This document shows, in pieces, positions 48,324 to 54,650 of a stretch of 64,000 bases of DNA (position 1 is the first letter of the stretch; each line of letters begins with the position of its first letter). The DNA lies in contig NZ_CP013611.1 in assembly GCF_001482385.1 (NCBI RefSeq), positions 434,001-498,000 of the forward strand. Direction: 5' to 3'. A program made the position numbers and the translations under genes. The notes beneath the pieces are model-generated. The model was not told the origin of the DNA, did no database searches, and saw only the letters and a list, made by a program, of their open reading frames with translations. The stretch comes from Pseudoalteromonas rubra. Its GTDB lineage: Bacteria; Pseudomonadota; Gammaproteobacteria; Enterobacterales; Alteromonadaceae.

Positions 48324-48404
48324 ATTAACCACTCCTTAACCTTGTGCCAGATCAAAGAGCCACAAAAGCAGCGCGTTATGATGAGTTTAACAAAGGAGAA
48401 CATC

Positions 48405-48719
48405 ATGACTGCTGACCAATTAAATAGTTTTCTCAAAACCAAACAAAGCGAACTGAGTCAACGGATAGCTGCCATTGAAGCCGATTTCAGAAAGGGCCGC
48501 TCGGCCAACTTCGCAGAGCAAAATACAGAGCGTGAAAACGACGATGTACTGGACGAAATTCACCAGGAAGCGAAGCAAGAGCTGGTAATGGTGAATCAGG
48601 CGATACTGCGTATAGAGCAGGGGGCTTATGGCGTGTGTCAGCATTGTGAAGAACAAATCAACCCGGAGCGTTTAAACGCTCTGCCTTACACAACGACTTG
48701 TATTAAATGCGCAAAATAG
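48405..48719 (+). CDS. TraR/DksA C4-type zinc-finger protein
   Basis: 104 residues from ATG 48405, which has AAAGGAG six bases upstream; the frame is open further but without support. An N-terminal helical part with charged residues (about 1-65) is followed by the four-cysteine finger CQHC ... CIKC near the C-terminus. Smaller than DksA (about 150), like the YbiI/TraR-type members that may act on RNA polymerase. The next gene follows 13 bases later, so both are probably cotranscribed. Confidence 0.88.
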   Translation: MTADQLNSFLKTKQSELSQRIAAIEADFRKGRSANFAEQNTERENDDVLDEIHQEAKQELVMVNQAILRIEQGAYGVCQHCEEQINPERLNALPYTTTCIKCAK

Positions 48720-48732
48720 AAAGGACCGTATT

Positions 48733-48984
48733 ATGACAATTGAAAAACATGATCTGCACCACGAGTTTCCTGAATACAAAGATGAGATCCACCACCTGAA
48801 AATGAACGACGCACACTTCGCTCGTTTGTTTAAAGAATACCATGAGTGCGATCACGAGGTGCATCGCATAGAAACCGGCGCAGAAAACACCTCTGACGAC
48901 TACCTCGAATCACTGAAAAAGCAGCGCCTGCACCTTAAAGATCAGCTGTTCTCTATTATTAAGAAGTCGCAAACTGTTGCTTAA
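48733..48984 (+). CDS. YdcH/DUF465 family small protein
   Basis: 83 residues, helical, with the family pattern: FPEYKDEIHHLKMNDAHFARL, then YHECDHEVHRIETG and KKQRLHLKDQLFSII. DUF465 proteins are short cytosolic helical hairpins of unknown function. It shares an operon with the zinc-finger protein before it and ends in a terminator. Confidence 0.9.
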   Translation: MTIEKHDLHHEFPEYKDEIHHLKMNDAHFARLFKEYHECDHEVHRIETGAENTSDDYLESLKKQRLHLKDQLFSIIKKSQTVA

Positions 48985-49047: not shown

Positions 49048-49263
49048 GTGTGCCAGAGGCCAAAGTTATGCTGTTTTTATACAAAGTGCCTGGTTTTGTC
49101 CTATAACACTATTACTCGCCGTTTTTGGGAAAGGTGACAAAGCGAGATGTAACGCTATGCTATCTTTCTGTTTACATTGGCAGTTATTAGTGGAATCATG
49201 AAGGTATGTAATATGAGCCGTTTTGGTGTGTTTTGAACTATCAAAGTGGGACAGAATTGAGTT
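49048..49263. other. Boundary region left of the cassette remnants
   Basis: 216 bases with no credible gene. The first recognisable integron-like boundary (GTTAGGC) is at 49264. A complete attC to its left could not be recognised, so the sequence may be the rearranged chromosome-cassette junction. Confidence 0.4.
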
Positions 49264-49285
49264 GTTAGGCATTCAAGGAAGTTTA

Positions 49286-49822
49286 GTGAAAATTTTAGGA
49301 GCCTTAATTTCAATCTTATTTATTGTATTGGCAGGTGCGCACTTATTTGTTGAGAAAATAACTGTTGATGCAATTACGATTGTTCTTTTAGTTCTAGCCA
49401 GTCTACCTTGGCTTTTTCCTTACTTAAAATCTCTTGAATTACCTGGCGGTATTAAAGTTGAACTAAAGGATGCTCTCAAAAAGGTTGAAAATGCCGTTCC
49501 AGAAGACAAAACTACTGCTCCAAAATACGCTGGTGTAAACTCCTCGTTAGCCTTTGTGGCTCTCAGAGTTGAGATTGAAAAAACAATCAGGAAGTATCAA
49601 TCTGATTTAGGTCATAAAAGCCATTCTCTGTCGATTAGATTACAAATCCTCGCCAACGATAATGTGATAAGTAAACCGCTATCGGAAGCCCTACTGGAAA
49701 TCGTAAAGTTAGGTAATGCAGCTGCGCATGGACAAACAATTGATTCTGAAGAAGCTGAGCTAATTCTAATGAGATCTGATTCTCTGCTAAATAAACTCGA
49801 AGACAGTCTAAAGAATGCCTAA
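49286..49822 (+). CDS. Cassette gene: membrane protein with DUF4145-like tail
   Basis: 178 residues from GTG 49286, preceded by AAGGAAG and lying 16 bases after the cassette boundary GTTAGGC (49264-49270); the longer frame to 49223 crosses that boundary and is rejected. Two membrane helices (about 3-22 and 31-48), then a cytosolic part with a coiled segment and a helical end (LLEIVKLGNAAAHGQTIDSE) similar in flavour to the DUF4145/HEPN-like NAAxHG helix. The stop codon TAA lies inside GCCTAAC, the first box of the following attC, as in genuine integron cassettes. AT-rich relative to the housekeeping genes. Function unknown; a defence role is speculation. Confidence 0.7.
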   Translation: MKILGALISILFIVLAGAHLFVEKITVDAITIVLLVLASLPWLFPYLKSLELPGGIKVELKDALKKVENAVPEDKTTAPKYAGVNSSLAFVALRVEIEKTIRKYQSDLGHKSHSLSIRLQILANDNVISKPLSEALLEIVKLGNAAAHGQTIDSEEAELILMRSDSLLNKLEDSLKNA

Positions 49823-49918
49823 CATGCCGGTCAAGGGTGGAGGCAAAACAGTAGGCTTGCGCTCGTACCTCGCTAAATTTAGCCGACTATTTGTGCGCCG
49901 CTTACCGGGGCGTTAGGC
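49817..49918 (+). other. attC-like recombination site of cassette 1
   Basis: 102 bases bounded by GCCTAAC (49817-49823) and GTTAGGC (49912-49918), which are exact reverse complements. Inside, CCGGTCAAG near the left box pairs with CTTACCGG near the right box except for one extra C, the position where attC sites carry an extrahelical base. The layout R''-L''-loop-L'-R' is therefore visible. It follows the cassette gene in the plus orientation. Confidence 0.75.
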
Positions 49919-49940
49919 ATCAAATACGGAGTATTCAGCA

Positions 49941-50077
49941 ATGGGTGGTGATGAAAAAAAGCCGTACCTCTCTCTCAATTCATTTCTCGTAAAAGATGAG
50001 CATAAAGACCTCAACGTCAGTGAGTTCCTGAAGAGTTCTGCACAAGTTAATTCTTACGATATTGAAGGACAAACAGA
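49941..50077 (+). pseudogene. Truncated cassette gene
   Basis: Starts 22 bases after the attC end with a CGGAGT site and ATG 49941 (MGGDEKKPYLSLNSFLVKDE). After about 45 residues (ending DIEGQTE) the frame enters the transposase element that begins at 50078 and soon stops at 50127-50129. No remaining 3' part was recognised on the far side of the element. Product unknown; the N-terminal part is hydrophilic. Confidence 0.6.
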
Positions 50078-51335
50078 GACACCCACCCGCAACTGGCGTG
50101 CGGAATGTACGTCGTCTACCTTTAGGTAATGCTCAATGGATTGAGAATGACAAATTATGCCAACTGCAAGGAAGAAGCAGGTCAGCTTATCAGACACTAA
50201 GTACTACCACTGCATATCCCGGTGTGTTCGTCGGGCATTTCTGTGCGGCAAAGACTGCGTCACGGGCAAGTCTTATGAACATCGGCGAGACTGGGTTGAG
50301 GAAAAATTACTGACCCTTGCGAAGGTGTTTTGCATTGATGTGTGTGGTTATGCCGTTATGAGCAATCATACGCATATCGTGTTGTATGTGGATGATAAGA
50401 AAGCACAAAGGTTATCAGATAAAGCGATAGTACTCCGCTGGCATAAACTGTTTAAAGGTAGCTGGCTGACACAAAAATACATCAATGGTGATGAGCTTAG
50501 CGAGTCAGAGCAAAGTTTACTTGATGCAGACATCAATGAATTCAGAATACGCCTTGCGAGTATCAGCTGGTTTATGCGGGTACTTAATGAAGAGATTGCC
50601 CGCAGGGCCAATAAAGAAGATGGCTGTACAGGCCGGTTTTGGGAAGGGCGATTTAAGTCACAGGCTTTGCTAGATGAGGCGGCACTGGCAGCGTGCCTGG
50701 CTTATGTTGACCTGAACCCAGTCAGAGCCAAAATGGCAGTTACACCGGAAACGTCAGATTACACCAGCATTAAAAAGCGTATTGAACATGCACAGCAAGG
50801 AAAGCAACCCAAAAGCTTACTACGTTTTGTGGGCAATCCAAGAAAGCACATGCCTAAAGGGTTGCCGTTTGAGCTGACCTATTACATACAGCTAGTTGAA
50901 TTAACAGGCCGAAGTATGCGTGCAGATAAGCGGGGTTATATCAGCGATAGCCAGCCTTTGCTGACACGATTGCAAATAGAGCCAGACAGCTGGCTCAAGC
51001 TCACTACGCAATTTACGAAGGTCTTTCATGGCGCGGTAGGGCGAAAGCAAGCGATGATAGATTACTGTAAGAATCTTCACAAAAGGCGACGCGCCAACTT
51101 GACTCAGTGCGAGCGTTTACTGGGTTAACACCTTCCCGTGATTACCATTTCGATTTATCTAAGTTGAGGCTTGGATGCGCATTCGTATTGTCCGAATCTG
51201 ATTATTCTTCAGGATTTCGTGCTTAAACTTACGACTTTCACGAATCGGAGCTTATAGAAAGCGCAGCATTTGATAGTCTTGCATTTCTTTATTGAACCTG
51301 CCAACAATTGGTTCGTGAATTTAATGGTGGGTGTC
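50078..51335. mobile_element. RAYT-type transposase element with inverted GACACCCACC ends
   Basis: A 1258-bp unit bounded by GACACCCACC (50078-50087) and its exact reverse complement GGTGGGTGTC (51326-51335). Behind the left end is a small hairpin (CCGCA / TGCGG), as in REP palindromes. It contains one IS200-like (Y1/HUH) transposase gene. It cuts a cassette gene on the left and an attC site on the right. REP-associated transposases are normally flanked by inverted REP units, which fits. Confidence 0.65.
50157..51128 (+). CDS. REP-associated (Y1/HUH, IS200-like) transposase
   Basis: 323 residues. The N-terminal domain has YYHCISRCVRRAFLCG, the His-hydrophobic-His motif HTH in MSNHTHIVLYV, and the region CLAYVDLNPVRAKMA containing the probable catalytic tyrosine, as in RAYT proteins. 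The extra C-terminal domain (about 215-323, rich in basic residues) distinguishes RAYTs of the longer class from plain IS200 transposases. It appears intact. The start ATG 50157 has no strong Shine-Dalgarno. Confidence 0.88.
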   Translation: MPTARKKQVSLSDTKYYHCISRCVRRAFLCGKDCVTGKSYEHRRDWVEEKLLTLAKVFCIDVCGYAVMSNHTHIVLYVDDKKAQRLSDKAIVLRWHKLFKGSWLTQKYINGDELSESEQSLLDADINEFRIRLASISWFMRVLNEEIARRANKEDGCTGRFWEGRFKSQALLDEAALAACLAYVDLNPVRAKMAVTPETSDYTSIKKRIEHAQQGKQPKSLLRFVGNPRKHMPKGLPFELTYYIQLVELTGRSMRADKRGYISDSQPLLTRLQIEPDSWLKLTTQFTKVFHGAVGRKQAMIDYCKNLHKRRRANLTQCERLLG

Positions 51336-51375
51336 ACTTATAATTATTTCCGACTTTTTAAACGCCTTGTTAGGT
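51336..51375 (-). other. Truncated attC of the minus-strand cassette array
   Basis: On the minus strand the sequence reads ACCTAACAAGGCG immediately after the stop of the gene at 51377-51769, as expected for the first half of an attC. It runs for about 40 bases and is then replaced by the end of the transposase element, so the second half is missing. Confidence 0.55.
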
Positions 51376-51376
51376 T

Positions 51377-51769
51377 TCATAGCTTATCAGCCTGAATTAT
51401 AACCATATCGGAACTTACTAAAGAATATGGTCCAGAATAATACCCCCCCGACTTAATAAAAAACATACCATCCATAAGAGGTGCTTCTTCGCCCAAAAGT
51501 TTCAGGGAAAAGAAAACGTGTTGGCTATCAGAACAAGTAATCTTGGCGGTCCAGAGCCTTTCATTATCTTCACTGGGCACTTGCTCTATTACTTTTACAT
51601 CATCAAGTTGCTTAAAGTTTGAAAGAAAAGGAATGTGAGAGTACGTGCCGTCGCTTACACCTTTTACAGAATTATCTATCGCATCATAAGCTTTAGTTTT
51701 AAATCGTGAGCAGTCCGCTTCTGCTTTAAGAGCAAACAGTAGCAAGAAAAAAGCTAAAAAACTTCTCAA
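51377..51769 (-). CDS. Cassette gene: small secreted protein of unknown function
   Basis: 130 residues from TTG at 51769, eight bases after AAGGAG; a TTG two codons upstream is too close to that site. Signal peptide MRSFLAFFLLLFALKAEA, mature start at DCSRFK. The mature part is soluble and periplasmic or secreted; no family recognised. It lies between two attC-like boundaries on the minus strand and is the second cassette counted from the dead integrase. Confidence 0.7.
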   Translation of the reverse strand: MRSFLAFFLLLFALKAEADCSRFKTKAYDAIDNSVKGVSDGTYSHIPFLSNFKQLDDVKVIEQVPSEDNERLWTAKITCSDSQHVFFSLKLLGEEAPLMDGMFFIKSGGYYSGPYSLVSSDMVIIQADKL

Positions 51770-51786
51770 TGGCAACTCTCCTTGAA

Positions 51787-51858
51787 ACCTAACGCCGCGC
51801 TCTGCGGCAAATTTGGAGCGCAGCGGAAAAATTGTCCGACAGCAGCGCCTTGTTATAC
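51787..51858 (-). other. attC-like recombination site between the two minus-strand cassettes
   Basis: 72 bases on the minus strand, from GTATAAC (51858-51852), which includes the stop codon of the OLD-family gene, to GTTAGGT (51793-51787). The arms GGCGCTGCTG and CGCAGAGCGCGGC can pair imperfectly into an attC-type hairpin. Orientation agrees with the transcription of both minus-strand cassettes. Confidence 0.7.
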
Positions 51859-53532
51859 ACCGACTAGCCCCTTCACAATTGTTTCAAGATCACTTTTCTT
51901 CTGGTCATCAATTAAACCGTCAACATGATGTTTGATTATATTAATTGGTTTTAGATCGTTACGCCCTTGTGGCTTAGGTATACCAAGAAACTCTTCAAGG
52001 TCTTCAGTGAACTGATGAATACCAGAAGTTAGCGGCGTCGATGCATCTGTCACAATTCCATTCCATGCGGAATGATGGCCCCTATTGTTATCACCATCGA
52101 ACACAACTGAATGAGGAATACCCAGCTCGGTTAGAAGGTGAATAAATCTATGCAGGTTATATTTACCGAGACAATCCAACACATATACCCTAGATTCTCT
52201 CAGAAACCCCCACTCATTATCGGCCAAATAGTCAAAATAGATCTTTTCTGAAGCACCTTCGCACAGTAAAACGTGGCGAGCGAAGAATAAACTAGATCTT
52301 TCTGAATCTAGCCAGAGAAAATACCTTAACTCCTCATCGGCCATTCTCACTTCTTCATCGAAATTAGGATCTTGGTCTTCACCAAACTCTCTGGCAGCAA
52401 CCAAGTTATTATCTAGCACTTCCTGCATTGTGGCTTCAGTTAGCTGGTGTGCAACTGAATGTTTATCGCTACGATGCAAGCGTAAGATTGAGGTTAAATC
52501 ACTTACTGATTTCCCGACGAACTGCGACGAATGCGTAGATACTATTACCTGCTGGCCATCGGCATCACCCAATTCTTTAAGGCTTCTGAATAGTACATCT
52601 TGTTGTGACGGATGAAGAAACGCCTCAGGCTCTTCAAATAAAAGCAATGTATAATCAGGATTAAAATCTTTCTTAGAGGATTTAGATGGAGCATTATATT
52701 GAGAAGACATCTTGATCAAAGTATAGATAAGATGCCTCTGCAAACCTTGTCCAAATGAAGATATATCAACACGCTGCCCGTTCAGCTTATGATCTTCAAT
52801 ATGTGGTTTAAGCAGATTTTTAACAATGTCGTCTGACTTGATCGGTGAGACCTCAATATCAATTCCAACGCCCCATTGCGATAGTTCAGCATTTACACCT
52901 GATTTAATCCCATCTATAGATAATCCGCTAGCTTCCTCTCCTTTAAATTCGTTGTTAAACTTTGAAAAAGCATTATTTAGCTCATCAAAGACGTTGCTGC
53001 TTGCAACGACTTTCTTCATCACTAGATTCACTAAATCTCGGAATGGCGAAGGCCCAGAAGTTTTTAAGGTGTCTTCTACTTTACTTACAGCCGGTATATA
53101 TATTATTGAACCAAGCTTCGATGATGAAACATTTGCGGCCCCATAAAAGTTATTTTCTGATAAAGCTCCATTTTCATACGCATAAATATTAGACTGCTTG
53201 GCTTTGACTCTTCCCTCGTCAGACAGAAAATATTTACGAACCTTTAGAATATTGTCGGACGACTTGTAGTCATCCTTTAAGGAGTCTTGTTCTTCATCAG
53301 ATGTATGGAAATGCAACTCGATCCAAGATTCATTGTCAGTAGTATCAATCTTCGGGAAATCTCTATTCTTGTCGAATTTTAGACCGCCATCCTCATAAAA
53401 GACTCTTAAGGCACTGAGCAGGTTCGTCTTCCCTGAATTATTTTCACCAACAATAAGGCTGTAGTTCGAGACTTCGAAAGTAGCATCTAGTACAGACCTG
53501 AAATTGTGAATGATTACCTTCCTTAGCTTCAT
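51853..53532 (-). CDS. OLD-family ATP-dependent nuclease (AAA/ABC ATPase + Toprim), first cassette
   Basis: 559 residues. N-terminal SMC/ABC-like ATPase: Walker A VGENNSGKTNLL (about 28-39), signature-like SFGQGLQRHLI (about 265-275), Walker B LLLFEEPEAFLHP, and H-loop VSTHSSQF. The C-terminal Toprim nuclease has the metal-binding glutamate in LLCEGASEKIYFDYL and the aspartate motif VVFDGDNN. This is the architecture of OLD/GajA nucleases, known from phage exclusion (P2 OLD) and Gabija. No UvrD-like helicase (GajB) follows, so it is probably a stand-alone class 1 OLD protein. Stop codon inside an attC box and start 26 bases after a GTTATAC boundary mark it as a gene cassette. AT-rich compared with the core genes, consistent with transfer. 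Confidence 0.85.
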   Translation of the reverse strand: MKLRKVIIHNFRSVLDATFEVSNYSLIVGENNSGKTNLLSALRVFYEDGGLKFDKNRDFPKIDTTDNESWIELHFHTSDEEQDSLKDDYKSSDNILKVRKYFLSDEGRVKAKQSNIYAYENGALSENNFYGAANVSSSKLGSIIYIPAVSKVEDTLKTSGPSPFRDLVNLVMKKVVASSNVFDELNNAFSKFNNEFKGEEASGLSIDGIKSGVNAELSQWGVGIDIEVSPIKSDDIVKNLLKPHIEDHKLNGQRVDISSFGQGLQRHLIYTLIKMSSQYNAPSKSSKKDFNPDYTLLLFEEPEAFLHPSQQDVLFRSLKELGDADGQQVIVSTHSSQFVGKSVSDLTSILRLHRSDKHSVAHQLTEATMQEVLDNNLVAAREFGEDQDPNFDEEVRMADEELRYFLWLDSERSSLFFARHVLLCEGASEKIYFDYLADNEWGFLRESRVYVLDCLGKYNLHRFIHLLTELGIPHSVVFDGDNNRGHHSAWNGIVTDASTPLTSGIHQFTEDLEEFLGIPKPQGRNDLKPINIIKHHVDGLIDDQKKSDLETIVKGLVGV

Positions 53533-53557
53533 GATTTCTCCGAAATTAGATTAAGGT

Positions 53558-53742
53558 GTATAACAATTTATTCTACCCCAAAATGTCGGAACATAAACCG
53601 ACAAAACGGGCTGTATTACATACCCTCATAGTCCCACGGAACAAACTCAAAGTAAACAATCGGTTGCAACCTGCAAAAATACACGTGTGTGAAAATTGGA
53701 CAAAACGACACGTAATAATGTTATTGGACAACAGTCAAAATA
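53558..53742. other. Candidate attI/leader region between first cassette and integrase remnant
   Basis: On the minus strand GTTATAC (53564-53558) marks the start of the first cassette. The sequence from there to the LexA-like box is non-coding and is where attI and the cassette promoter would lie in an integron. attI cannot be recognised by motif alone; the call rests on position. Confidence 0.4.
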
Positions 53743-53758
53743 CTGTCTATACATCCAG
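53743..53758 (+). promoter_or_regulatory. LexA-like box upstream of the integrase remnant
   Basis: CTGTCTATACATCCAG matches the gammaproteobacterial LexA consensus at 13 of 16 positions, including both CTG and CAG ends. It ends 26 bases before the ATG of the decayed integrase. SOS control of intI through LexA is established for other integrons, so the site probably survives from the functional state. Confidence 0.6.
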
Positions 53759-53784
53759 TTCCAAGCGTACCAAATGGAACGTTC

Positions 53785-54080
53785 ATGAAATAACCTTTTC
53801 TACTCATGCTGCAAGAGCAGATGTACCTACGACGTTATGCCAAACGCACCATTGAAGCGTAACTAAAATGGATTGCTGAATTTATTCGCTTTAACAATAT
53901 GCGACACCATACAACTATGGGGGATAGAGAAGTTGAACTATTTCTTAACCACCTTTAAATGGCCAAAATGTTGCTTAAGGCAAACAAGCGCTGGCATTAA
54001 ACGCCTTATGCTTTTTGTATAAAGAGATACTCAAAAAGCCATTGTCTTTACCAAAGAAAAGAAAAACGCAGACACCTGGC
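53785..54080 (+). pseudogene. intI: Decayed integron integrase (5' part)
   Basis: Translation from ATG 53785 gives MK*PFLL, MYLRRYAKRTIEA*LKWI, EFIRFNNMRHHTTMG and DREVELFLNHL*, closely following the N-terminal SAM-like domain of Vibrio-type IntI (RYYAKKTIEAYLHWI, MGDKEVEEFL). Nonsense codons are at positions 3, 26 and 58. After a frameshift near 53975 the frame reads KQALALNALCFLYKEILKK and PLSLPKK, matching the next IntI helix. The C-terminal catalytic domain is gone; an IS110-family fragment follows at once. Orientation, divergent from the first cassette, is that of a real integron. Confidence 0.85.
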
Positions 54081-54081
54081 C

Positions 54082-54243
54082 TTAACTGTTCTTGTATGGA
54101 TTTATCTTTTGAATCGCGTCACGGATCCCTTGCTCGTCATTTTTGACGGTGCAGTGAATATCTAAAGATCGTATATAAATGTCGAGCTGAAATTTGCCGG
54201 TATCGACACCAATGTTGATGCTTTGATTTGTTTTGGTATTCAT
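54082..54243 (-). pseudogene. IS110-family transposase, N-terminal fragment
   Basis: 53 codons on the minus strand: MNTKTNQSINIGVDTGKF, then QLDIYIRSLDIH and NDEQGIRDAI. IGVDxxK is the DEDD-domain start (first catalytic Asp) of IS110 transposases. The frame stops after DAIQKINPYKNS and the remaining roughly 270 residues are absent. The fragment abuts the integrase remnant and may have caused or followed its truncation. Confidence 0.7.
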
Positions 54244-54650
54244 AGAGGCTAACTCATGCTTGCAAAATGCGGGCTCGAGGCCTAGTTGACTATTCGAGTG
54301 TGGTGCTTGGAGTCTTTTACATCGTTCATTCTTGTTACCGGTCTCTCAATAGAGGAACCGAGATTCAATCGAACTACTGTAAATGAAGGCTTTAATTGCA
54401 GCTACAGCCTGGAACTCACTTTACCCAGAATCGGTAAAACACATAAATTTGATGGCTCTATTATCCATACAAGTTACTCAAAAGGACGCATTCGCCCTAA
54501 CTCATTCCTGATCGAAAAAATGTTAGAGCGGCCGTCCGCTGCTCATTCACCCAAGCACCCACCTACATACTTTGAAACGATTTGTCATACTCATCTGGAC
54601 CCCCCTTTGCTACACTTCCTGAATCGTCGTCACCGCATATTGGAAGTTTT
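54244..54650. other. Intergenic region with no assigned gene
   Basis: About 400 bases beyond the insertion-sequence fragment. An open frame at 54286-54663 (plus, 125 codons) has no ribosome site, no recognised domain and overlaps the better-supported small gene at 54651; it is probably chance or gene debris. Confidence 0.4.

Follow-up and report, generated by a model that had tools for sequence, protein, structure and literature searches.

Introduction

An integron is usually read as one integrase, one attI site, and one array of gene cassettes, and arrays that lack intI are classed as clusters of attC sites lacking an integrase (CALINs) or as fossils. In the established chemistry of integrons, one strand of attC folds, the integrase IntI brings it together with attI in double-stranded form, and the cut falls after the G of GTT. 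The present analysis concerns an integron locus of Pseudoalteromonas rubra within a stretch of 64,000 nucleotides (hereafter the window; C1:434001-498000). The genome comprises 5.91 Mb in three contigs. A sequence-only reading had regarded this locus as a chromosomal integron in decay, with its remaining cassettes immobilised. It is argued here that the locus is quite probably a two-headed platform without an integrase of its own, belonging to a set of orphan attI platforms whose cassettes would be exchanged by an integrase acting in trans.

Several described systems come close to this arrangement. Arrays of attC sites (CALINs) are described as mobilisable in trans (PMC12444791), and the same text presents the Xanthomonas ilvD integrons as having an inactivated intI, a conserved locus, and CALINs at conserved positions (PMC12444791). 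The use of attG sites by IntI is also known (PMC12901181, PMC12444791). With regard to detection, attI sites outside class 1 are, according to the IntegronFinder 2.0 paper, poorly described and not detected (PMC9024848). No report of a multi-copy or orphan attI was found in the open-licence literature searched, subscription literature being outside the search.

The window locus resembles each of these systems in part. A CALIN holds at least two attC sites with no intI nearby, and loci of the window type likewise carry attC cassettes without a working intI close by; in the window, two full attC sites lie within 2.1 kb and the local intI is dead. A CALIN is defined by attC alone, whereas here attI sites are also present and the arrays begin at a conserved module of attI and promoter. 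A dead intI, a conserved locus, and attC cassettes are shared with the sedentary ilvD integrons of Xanthomonas, but here different cassettes follow once the local intI has been lost, and a single genome can hold several dispersed attIs. Cassette insertion away from an integron recalls attG; in contrast to an attG, which is neither attI nor attC and lacks a conserved site, a dedicated module of 170-240 bp is found here.

A mobile integron shares the attI family of the window. The dfrA1 integron of the Aliivibrio salmonicida plasmid pRVS1-224 (locus L314), which we take to be the 'class 5' mobile integron, carries an attI of that family (116.7 bits). The IntI and the flanking SDR of this plasmid integron are 99.4% and 99.2% identical, respectively, to those of the genus genome G021 (locus L124), and for this reason a chromosome group of the Pseudoalteromonas type is the likely source of the plasmid integron, flank included. 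The window intI is 47% (residues 1-85) and 75% (residues 58-89) identical, in two overlapping segments, to the IntI that is 99.4% identical to the plasmid one. The two loci differ in that the plasmid-borne integron has intI adjoining attI; the window locus is chromosomal, and its flanks are common to relatives.

Two attI Sites in the Window

A covariance model for the final 102 nt of attI (R2) was built from 25 seeds, none of them from the window; E-values of this and the other home-made covariance models are rough. Two predicted attI sites in the window were recovered independently by R2, attI_L on the plus strand (49165..49267; 96.3 bits, E 4.3e-16) and attI_R on the minus strand (53561..53662; 83.7 bits, E 1.7e-13), and they converge on the cassettes between them. 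As members of one family, the left one without intI and the right one beside a dead intI, they would face each other across short arrays. The sequence-only reading had missed attI_L and, with it, the second head that owns the plus-strand cassettes; it was right about the two minus-strand cassettes nearest to intI, from which the plus-strand intI remnant faces away.

The conserved module of attI_L begins at about 49076, and its core, GTTAGGC, lies at 49264-49270. About 190 bp before this core are kept in three relatives with the same left flank (G100, G059, and G036), and a different gene follows in each. The segment can be aligned with the intI-attI interval at the right end of the window, and similar segments adjoin intact intI, at the attI position, in G021 and G022. 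On the basis of its likeness to intI-attI intervals and its conservation up to the core, it is interpreted as an attI without integrase. No match to attI_L was present in the phage collection. The core of attI_R is GTTATAC (53558-53564), and its region is 92% identical to the copy on chromosome 2 (C2).

Within attI_L, a putative Pc-like promoter, TTTACA-17-AATCAT (49171..49199, plus strand), was placed by consensus match only; a consensus promoter scan of 49050-49300 gave 2 sites against 0.6 expected, and TTTACA is kept in most of the 25 aligned attI copies. A working promoter at this position would read into the first cassette. Downstream of it, an inverted repeat (49221..49246, plus strand) corresponds to an 8-bp stem that covaries among the 25 copies, none of which is from the window. 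In this stem, 94% of cells are paired and 15 are double-changed, compared with 3.7 in shuffles; as the copies are related, this is no more than suggestive.

The module of orphan attIs is most often ~170 bp long (range ~170-240 bp) and is the counterpart of the stretch between intI and attI in intact integrons. It is this conserved module, with its covarying stem, that contradicts an origin of the loci by landing of cassettes at ordinary sites of the attG type, at which any likeness to attI would be incidental; even though IntI is known to use attG, such an origin is highly improbable. In G021, two attI copies lie in identical stretches of 1599 bp, of which 319 bp precede the core. The module was not traced to a transposon, as no ends or target duplications were recognised around these two copies.

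The attI Family across Genomes

R2 was applied to 30 genomes of the genus, chosen for having at most four contigs. It gave 70 attI matches in 18 genomes, 19 of the 70 being model seeds, and no attI in the other 12. Three matches belong to the P. rubra genome, namely the two in the window and one on C2, the latter a seed. By tblastn, eight of the 70 adjoin intI or a fragment of it (a ninth flagged site, with a 24%-identical match, was excluded from this count), and 62 are without it. G021 has nine matches without intI, plus one adjoining an intact IntI. In an order-wide panel of 119 genomes, searched with stricter filters, attI was detected only in the P. rubra genome and in three genomes of genus g12 (2, 6, and 10 sites). 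In addition, 7 of 80 IntI loci in named genomes carry an attI of the family (six Pseudoalteromonas and Colwellia maritima). At three attC arrays of the P. rubra genome (L058 at C1:4.52 Mb, L059 at C1:2 kb, and L060 at C1:818k), no attI of the window family was found by R2.

The position of attC sites relative to attI was assessed with two attC covariance models. The broader one (R3; 89 attCs, all outside the window) gave, within 4.5 kb, 80 pairings with the attC downstream and correctly oriented, 2 with it downstream and wrongly oriented, and 0 with it upstream; the window attC at 51787, matched with filters off, was added to this count by hand. The other (R1), made from 10 attC sites elsewhere in the P. 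rubra genome and none in the window, gave 65, 2, and 0, respectively, within 4 kb. Both wrongly oriented pairings are those of each window attI with the attC of the other head. An R3 attC lies downstream within 4.5 kb in 35 of the 62 orphans, and 53 are followed by a same-strand open reading frame (ORF) of at least 80 aa that starts no more than 300 bp from the core, at 16-33 nt in 43 of the 53. When 51 first-cassette proteins were compared with Pfam (E 1e-4; L221 and L180 omitted, their proteins being identical to those of L134 and L188), 26 families were matched, and each of the 25 listed had a single member.

Some further observations on individual loci may be mentioned. L134 (G049) and L221 (G001) have an identical first-cassette protein of 239 aa and equal attI scores, and no IntI was found in G001 by a one-query survey (E 1e-8). 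The orphan attIs of L313 (pMEGA of P. translucida TAC125) and L317 (a plasmid of P. arctica A37-1-2) follow the same tyrosine recombinase and small ORF, which are 98% and 95% identical between the two. Among the loci searched, this pair precedes attI on these two plasmids only, and it is a possible route for the spread of orphan attIs.

Cassette Differences at Shared Sites

Loci were paired when their flanks, from 300 bp upstream outwards, had over 250 bp in common. Of 44 such pairs, 43 differ downstream and 1 is the same. With the 11 pairs that involve a locus with intI set aside, 33 are left, from 13 orphan sites in two genera. After the core, 32 of them differ and 1 does not; pairs at one site are not independent, and some of the 13 sites are on second replicons. 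Breakpoints were placed by gapped local alignment, since an ungapped change-point test misplaces them where attIs differ by indels, and the alignment stops 0-7 nt past GTTA in 28 of the 32 differing pairs. In genus g12, where 17 attI loci were read and one has an adjoining intI, three pairs are 94-99% identical over the upstream 600 bp, one is 97% identical over 301 bp, and one is 80% identical over 411 bp, with nothing similar directly downstream.

The SDR locus is one of the 13 sites. Intact intI is present there in G021 and G022, and G046, G121, and G020 have one common deletion of intI beyond about its first nine codons (equivalent to L124 4130-5072). The arrays of these three species open differently (names by reading): with a DUF262/GmrSD-like gene in one, a gene of ~200 aa in another, and a reverse-transcriptase-like gene in the third. 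Among the 51 first proteins scanned, one matches GmrSD_N and one RVT_1. Each of the three holds another intact IntI elsewhere (57-61% identical). As for the window, its intI was probably lost before the split from G100, since part of the IS110-type fragment that truncates it (54253-54480) is present at the same place in that genome; no cassette common to the two arrays was found by blastn. Neither G044 nor G102 offers a clean empty site at the flank of the window locus.

Within the P. rubra genome, the C2 attI adjoins an intI of which 117 residues are left, and the first cassette at this attI shares 636 identical nt with a cassette in the intact array (C1:898k). The identity begins exactly at the core and finishes at the last attC box.

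These data bear on two other histories. Each orphan attI could be the plain remains of a decayed integron that has lost intI and in which the remaining cassettes are fixed. The window intI is indeed dead, deletion of intI has demonstrably produced an orphan at the SDR-intI-attI locus, and 8 of the 18 attI-bearing genomes have no intact IntI. Such a history is nevertheless quite unlikely, as it is largely contradicted, unless every lineage lost intI after its last exchange, by cassettes that differ between species after a common loss of intI, by divergence right past the core in all but one of the orphan-site pairs, and by the presence of one identical cassette in an intact array and at an attI with truncated intI. 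The same differences and the same shared cassette, together with the intact IntI elsewhere in the genome, speak against the claim that the remaining cassettes of the window are immobilised; the description of integron remains with a dead intI holds.

A local intI could also have been active at each site until recently, exchanging cassettes in cis, with a separate loss in each lineage. This would fit two findings: fragments of intI adjoin some attIs, and at the SDR locus G021 and G022 carry an intact gene. At the other 12 orphan sites, no intact intI was present among the loci compared, and no systematic search of relatives was made. Separate losses are unlikely in view of the single deletion junction common to three species at the SDR locus and the IS110-type fragment common to the window and G100. 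Moreover, many orphans have a common, distinct upstream segment (from GAGCGA, ~240 bp) that replaces the LexA box and the start of intI.

Integrase Supply

In the explanation preferred here, exchange in trans at orphan attI platforms, an IntI encoded elsewhere would insert and remove cassettes at orphan attIs. In the P. rubra genome this may be the enzyme at C1:907765-908721, and earlier perhaps others. It would pair the folded attC strand with the double-stranded orphan attI, cutting after the G of GTT, and turnover of cassettes may be ongoing. The gene at C1:907765-908721 encodes the one intact IntI of this genome (319 aa; 396 bits against a curated cut-off of 265) and is flanked on the left by a cassette array. 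Besides the window remnant, another broken intI of that remnant's type is located at L005/L009 (C1:4066k), with a C-terminal ORF of 244 aa; copies of a Y1-type transposase adjoin it, and a short N-terminal DNA match is out of order.

A number of points count against exchange in trans. The attI of the intact P. rubra IntI (locus L017) was not matched by R2, nor were the attIs of intact IntIs read in G109, G020, G121, and G133 (L199-L202), so that these enzymes would need to accept a foreign attI; an intact IntI adjoins an attI of the window family only in G021 and G022, and in the others the intact IntI is of a different type. In a survey of the attI-bearing genomes with one query (E 1e-8), a full-length IntI free of stops was found in 10 of 18 and in none of the other 8 (G008, whose open frame of 412 aa contains an additional stretch, was counted as not intact); hence either enzyme loss and re-supply with use of foreign attIs must belong to the model, or the search missed some. 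With regard to the sites, 27 of the 62 orphan attIs have no R3 attC within 4.5 kb, some weak copies have a degenerate core, and one of the 62 (L085:15625 in G100) retains an intI stub of 17 residues. In 4 of the 32 differing pairs, the alignment stops elsewhere (+26/+34, -17, -29, and -11/-14). A larger array may have existed in the common ancestor of the window and G100, with a different part retained in each. The 636-nt identity gives neither the direction nor the date of an exchange, and its right end is uninformative, since an insertion sequence lies at that point of the intact array; the left end alone marks a recombination point.

A broader scheme, which is somewhat favoured, is that of a distributed integron, in which one integrase, or a succession of them, would serve many dedicated, promoter-carrying attI platforms on chromosomes and plasmids. 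The platform, rather than the integrase gene, would be the stable inherited unit and would have multiplied by itself. One or a few cassettes would occupy each platform as a slot of their own and be expressed at once.

Organization of the Window Locus

The attC of cassette 1 (49817..49918, plus strand) was the sole R1 match in the window under default filters (74.6 bits, E 4.5e-18 over the 64-kb window; R3, 77.5 bits). The attC of the OLD cassette (51787..51858, minus strand), of a short 72-nt type, was listed by neither model under default filters and was matched by both with filters off (R1, 23.2 bits, E 1.3e-4 over 7 kb; R3, 30.7 bits, E 3.8e-6 over 5.6 kb). An attC in the intact integron of the same genome (L017:16456-16525) matches it at 95.7% identity over 70 nt. 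The conserved-fold matches bear out the two full attC sites of the sequence-only reading, just as the similarity to IntI at 53785-54080 bears out its decayed intI. The truncated attC proposed there can be read by eye as a 5' half-site cut by a Y1-type element (51338..51375, minus strand), and no covariance model recovered it. When the two window attCs were folded singly, on either strand, the z-scores (-0.66 to -1.40) were not significant; folding energy by itself is thus no proof of these sites, which is supplied by the covariance models. Stop codons lie inside the first attC box, as had been suggested, in two of the three cassette genes (49820-49822 and 51853-51855), and the third falls 1-2 nt short.

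On the plus strand, cassette 1 (49265..49912) carries a gene for a DUF4145 protein of 178 aa (49286-49822), and it is followed by cassette 2 (49913..50077; gene from an ATG at 49941, by direct reading), which is cut by a Y1/REP-type transposase element (50078..51337, plus strand). This element has the ends GACACCCACC/GGTGGGTGTC and an ORF of 323 aa (50157-51128); its match to Pfam Y1_Tnp (E 0.01) is below the cut-off, and many copies are present in the genus. On the minus strand are a cassette gene of 132 aa with no family in the scans (51377..51775) and the first cassette of the right head, encoding an OLD/GajA-like ATPase-TOPRIM protein of 559 aa (51853..53532; Pfam AAA_15 and OLD-like_TOPRIM; PADLOC Old, E 1e-58). 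This single-gene protein forms a complete cassette, and the same cassette occurs in G056 (95% amino acid identity). Drt4, HerA, and a TIR effector family are among the matches of first cassettes at other orphan attIs.

The Y1/REP-type element is the meeting point of the plus- and minus-strand arrays and truncates a cassette on either side. It is fairly probable that the two-headed shape is an accident, in which two integrons were joined by this element and a deletion, without functional meaning; this is compatible with exchange in trans at orphan platforms. Three convergent pairs within 20 kb were found in the panel, two of them orthologous. Against a mere accident, the convergent pair is kept in G100, which has a second one at another site.

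The intI remnant (53785..54081, plus strand) diverges from the right-head cassettes and represents the N-terminal part only. At the protein level, it is 85.7% (63 residues) and 78.1% (32 residues) identical to another IntI fragment of the same genome. There are four TAA codons in the starting frame across residues 1-85, plus a frameshift, and the similarity ends at about residue 95 of 320; the catalytic domain is absent, and the locus has no functional adjoining integrase. The LexA-like box that had been noted beside it is confirmed between attI_R and intI as CTG-N10-CAG (53743..53758, plus strand), and intact relatives have a similar box at the corresponding place.

The remnant is truncated by an end fragment of an IS110-type element (54082..54468; ORF 54082-54243, minus strand; family by reading, with no Pfam match), and similar DNA is found on other contigs or at other positions in G036, G041, G102, and G118. 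A possible remnant of the distal attC of an ancestral left-headed array (54469..54490, plus strand) is seen as ATAACAAG followed by TTACTCAAAAGGACGC in G059 and G033; it is weak and has no model match. In the two genomes the right flank opens with this attC-like half-site, and the target of the IS110-type element may therefore have been an attC or its immediate neighbourhood. The neighbours of the integron locus, named by reading, are a dksA-like/DUF465 pair on the left (48342-48984) and a metalloprotease-like gene on the right (55792). A scan of the window at Rfam gathering thresholds gave no match, and ARAGORN found neither tRNA nor tmRNA in it.

Elsewhere in the P. rubra genome (L017, L058, and L059), copies of an element with an IS4-type transposase (~400 aa, by reading) occupy the same spot in several attCs, just before the TT of the last box, and this element seems to target attC. 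At the end of contig C1, L058 (C1:4512890-4532889) contains a near-perfect tandem repeat of two cassettes and an IS element with a period of ~2.3 kb, which is either a real amplification or an assembly artefact.

Implications

The death of its integrase gene need not be the end of an integron. The attI appears to outlive its integrase and to occupy many sites, and the cassettes that follow it would change over evolutionary time. A plasmid integron with a resistance cassette is also placed in a marine chromosomal lineage. If exchange in trans at orphan platforms is true, a cell would have many first positions rather than one. This could account for CALINs at conserved loci, and the question of whether arrays without an integrase are alive becomes a testable one.

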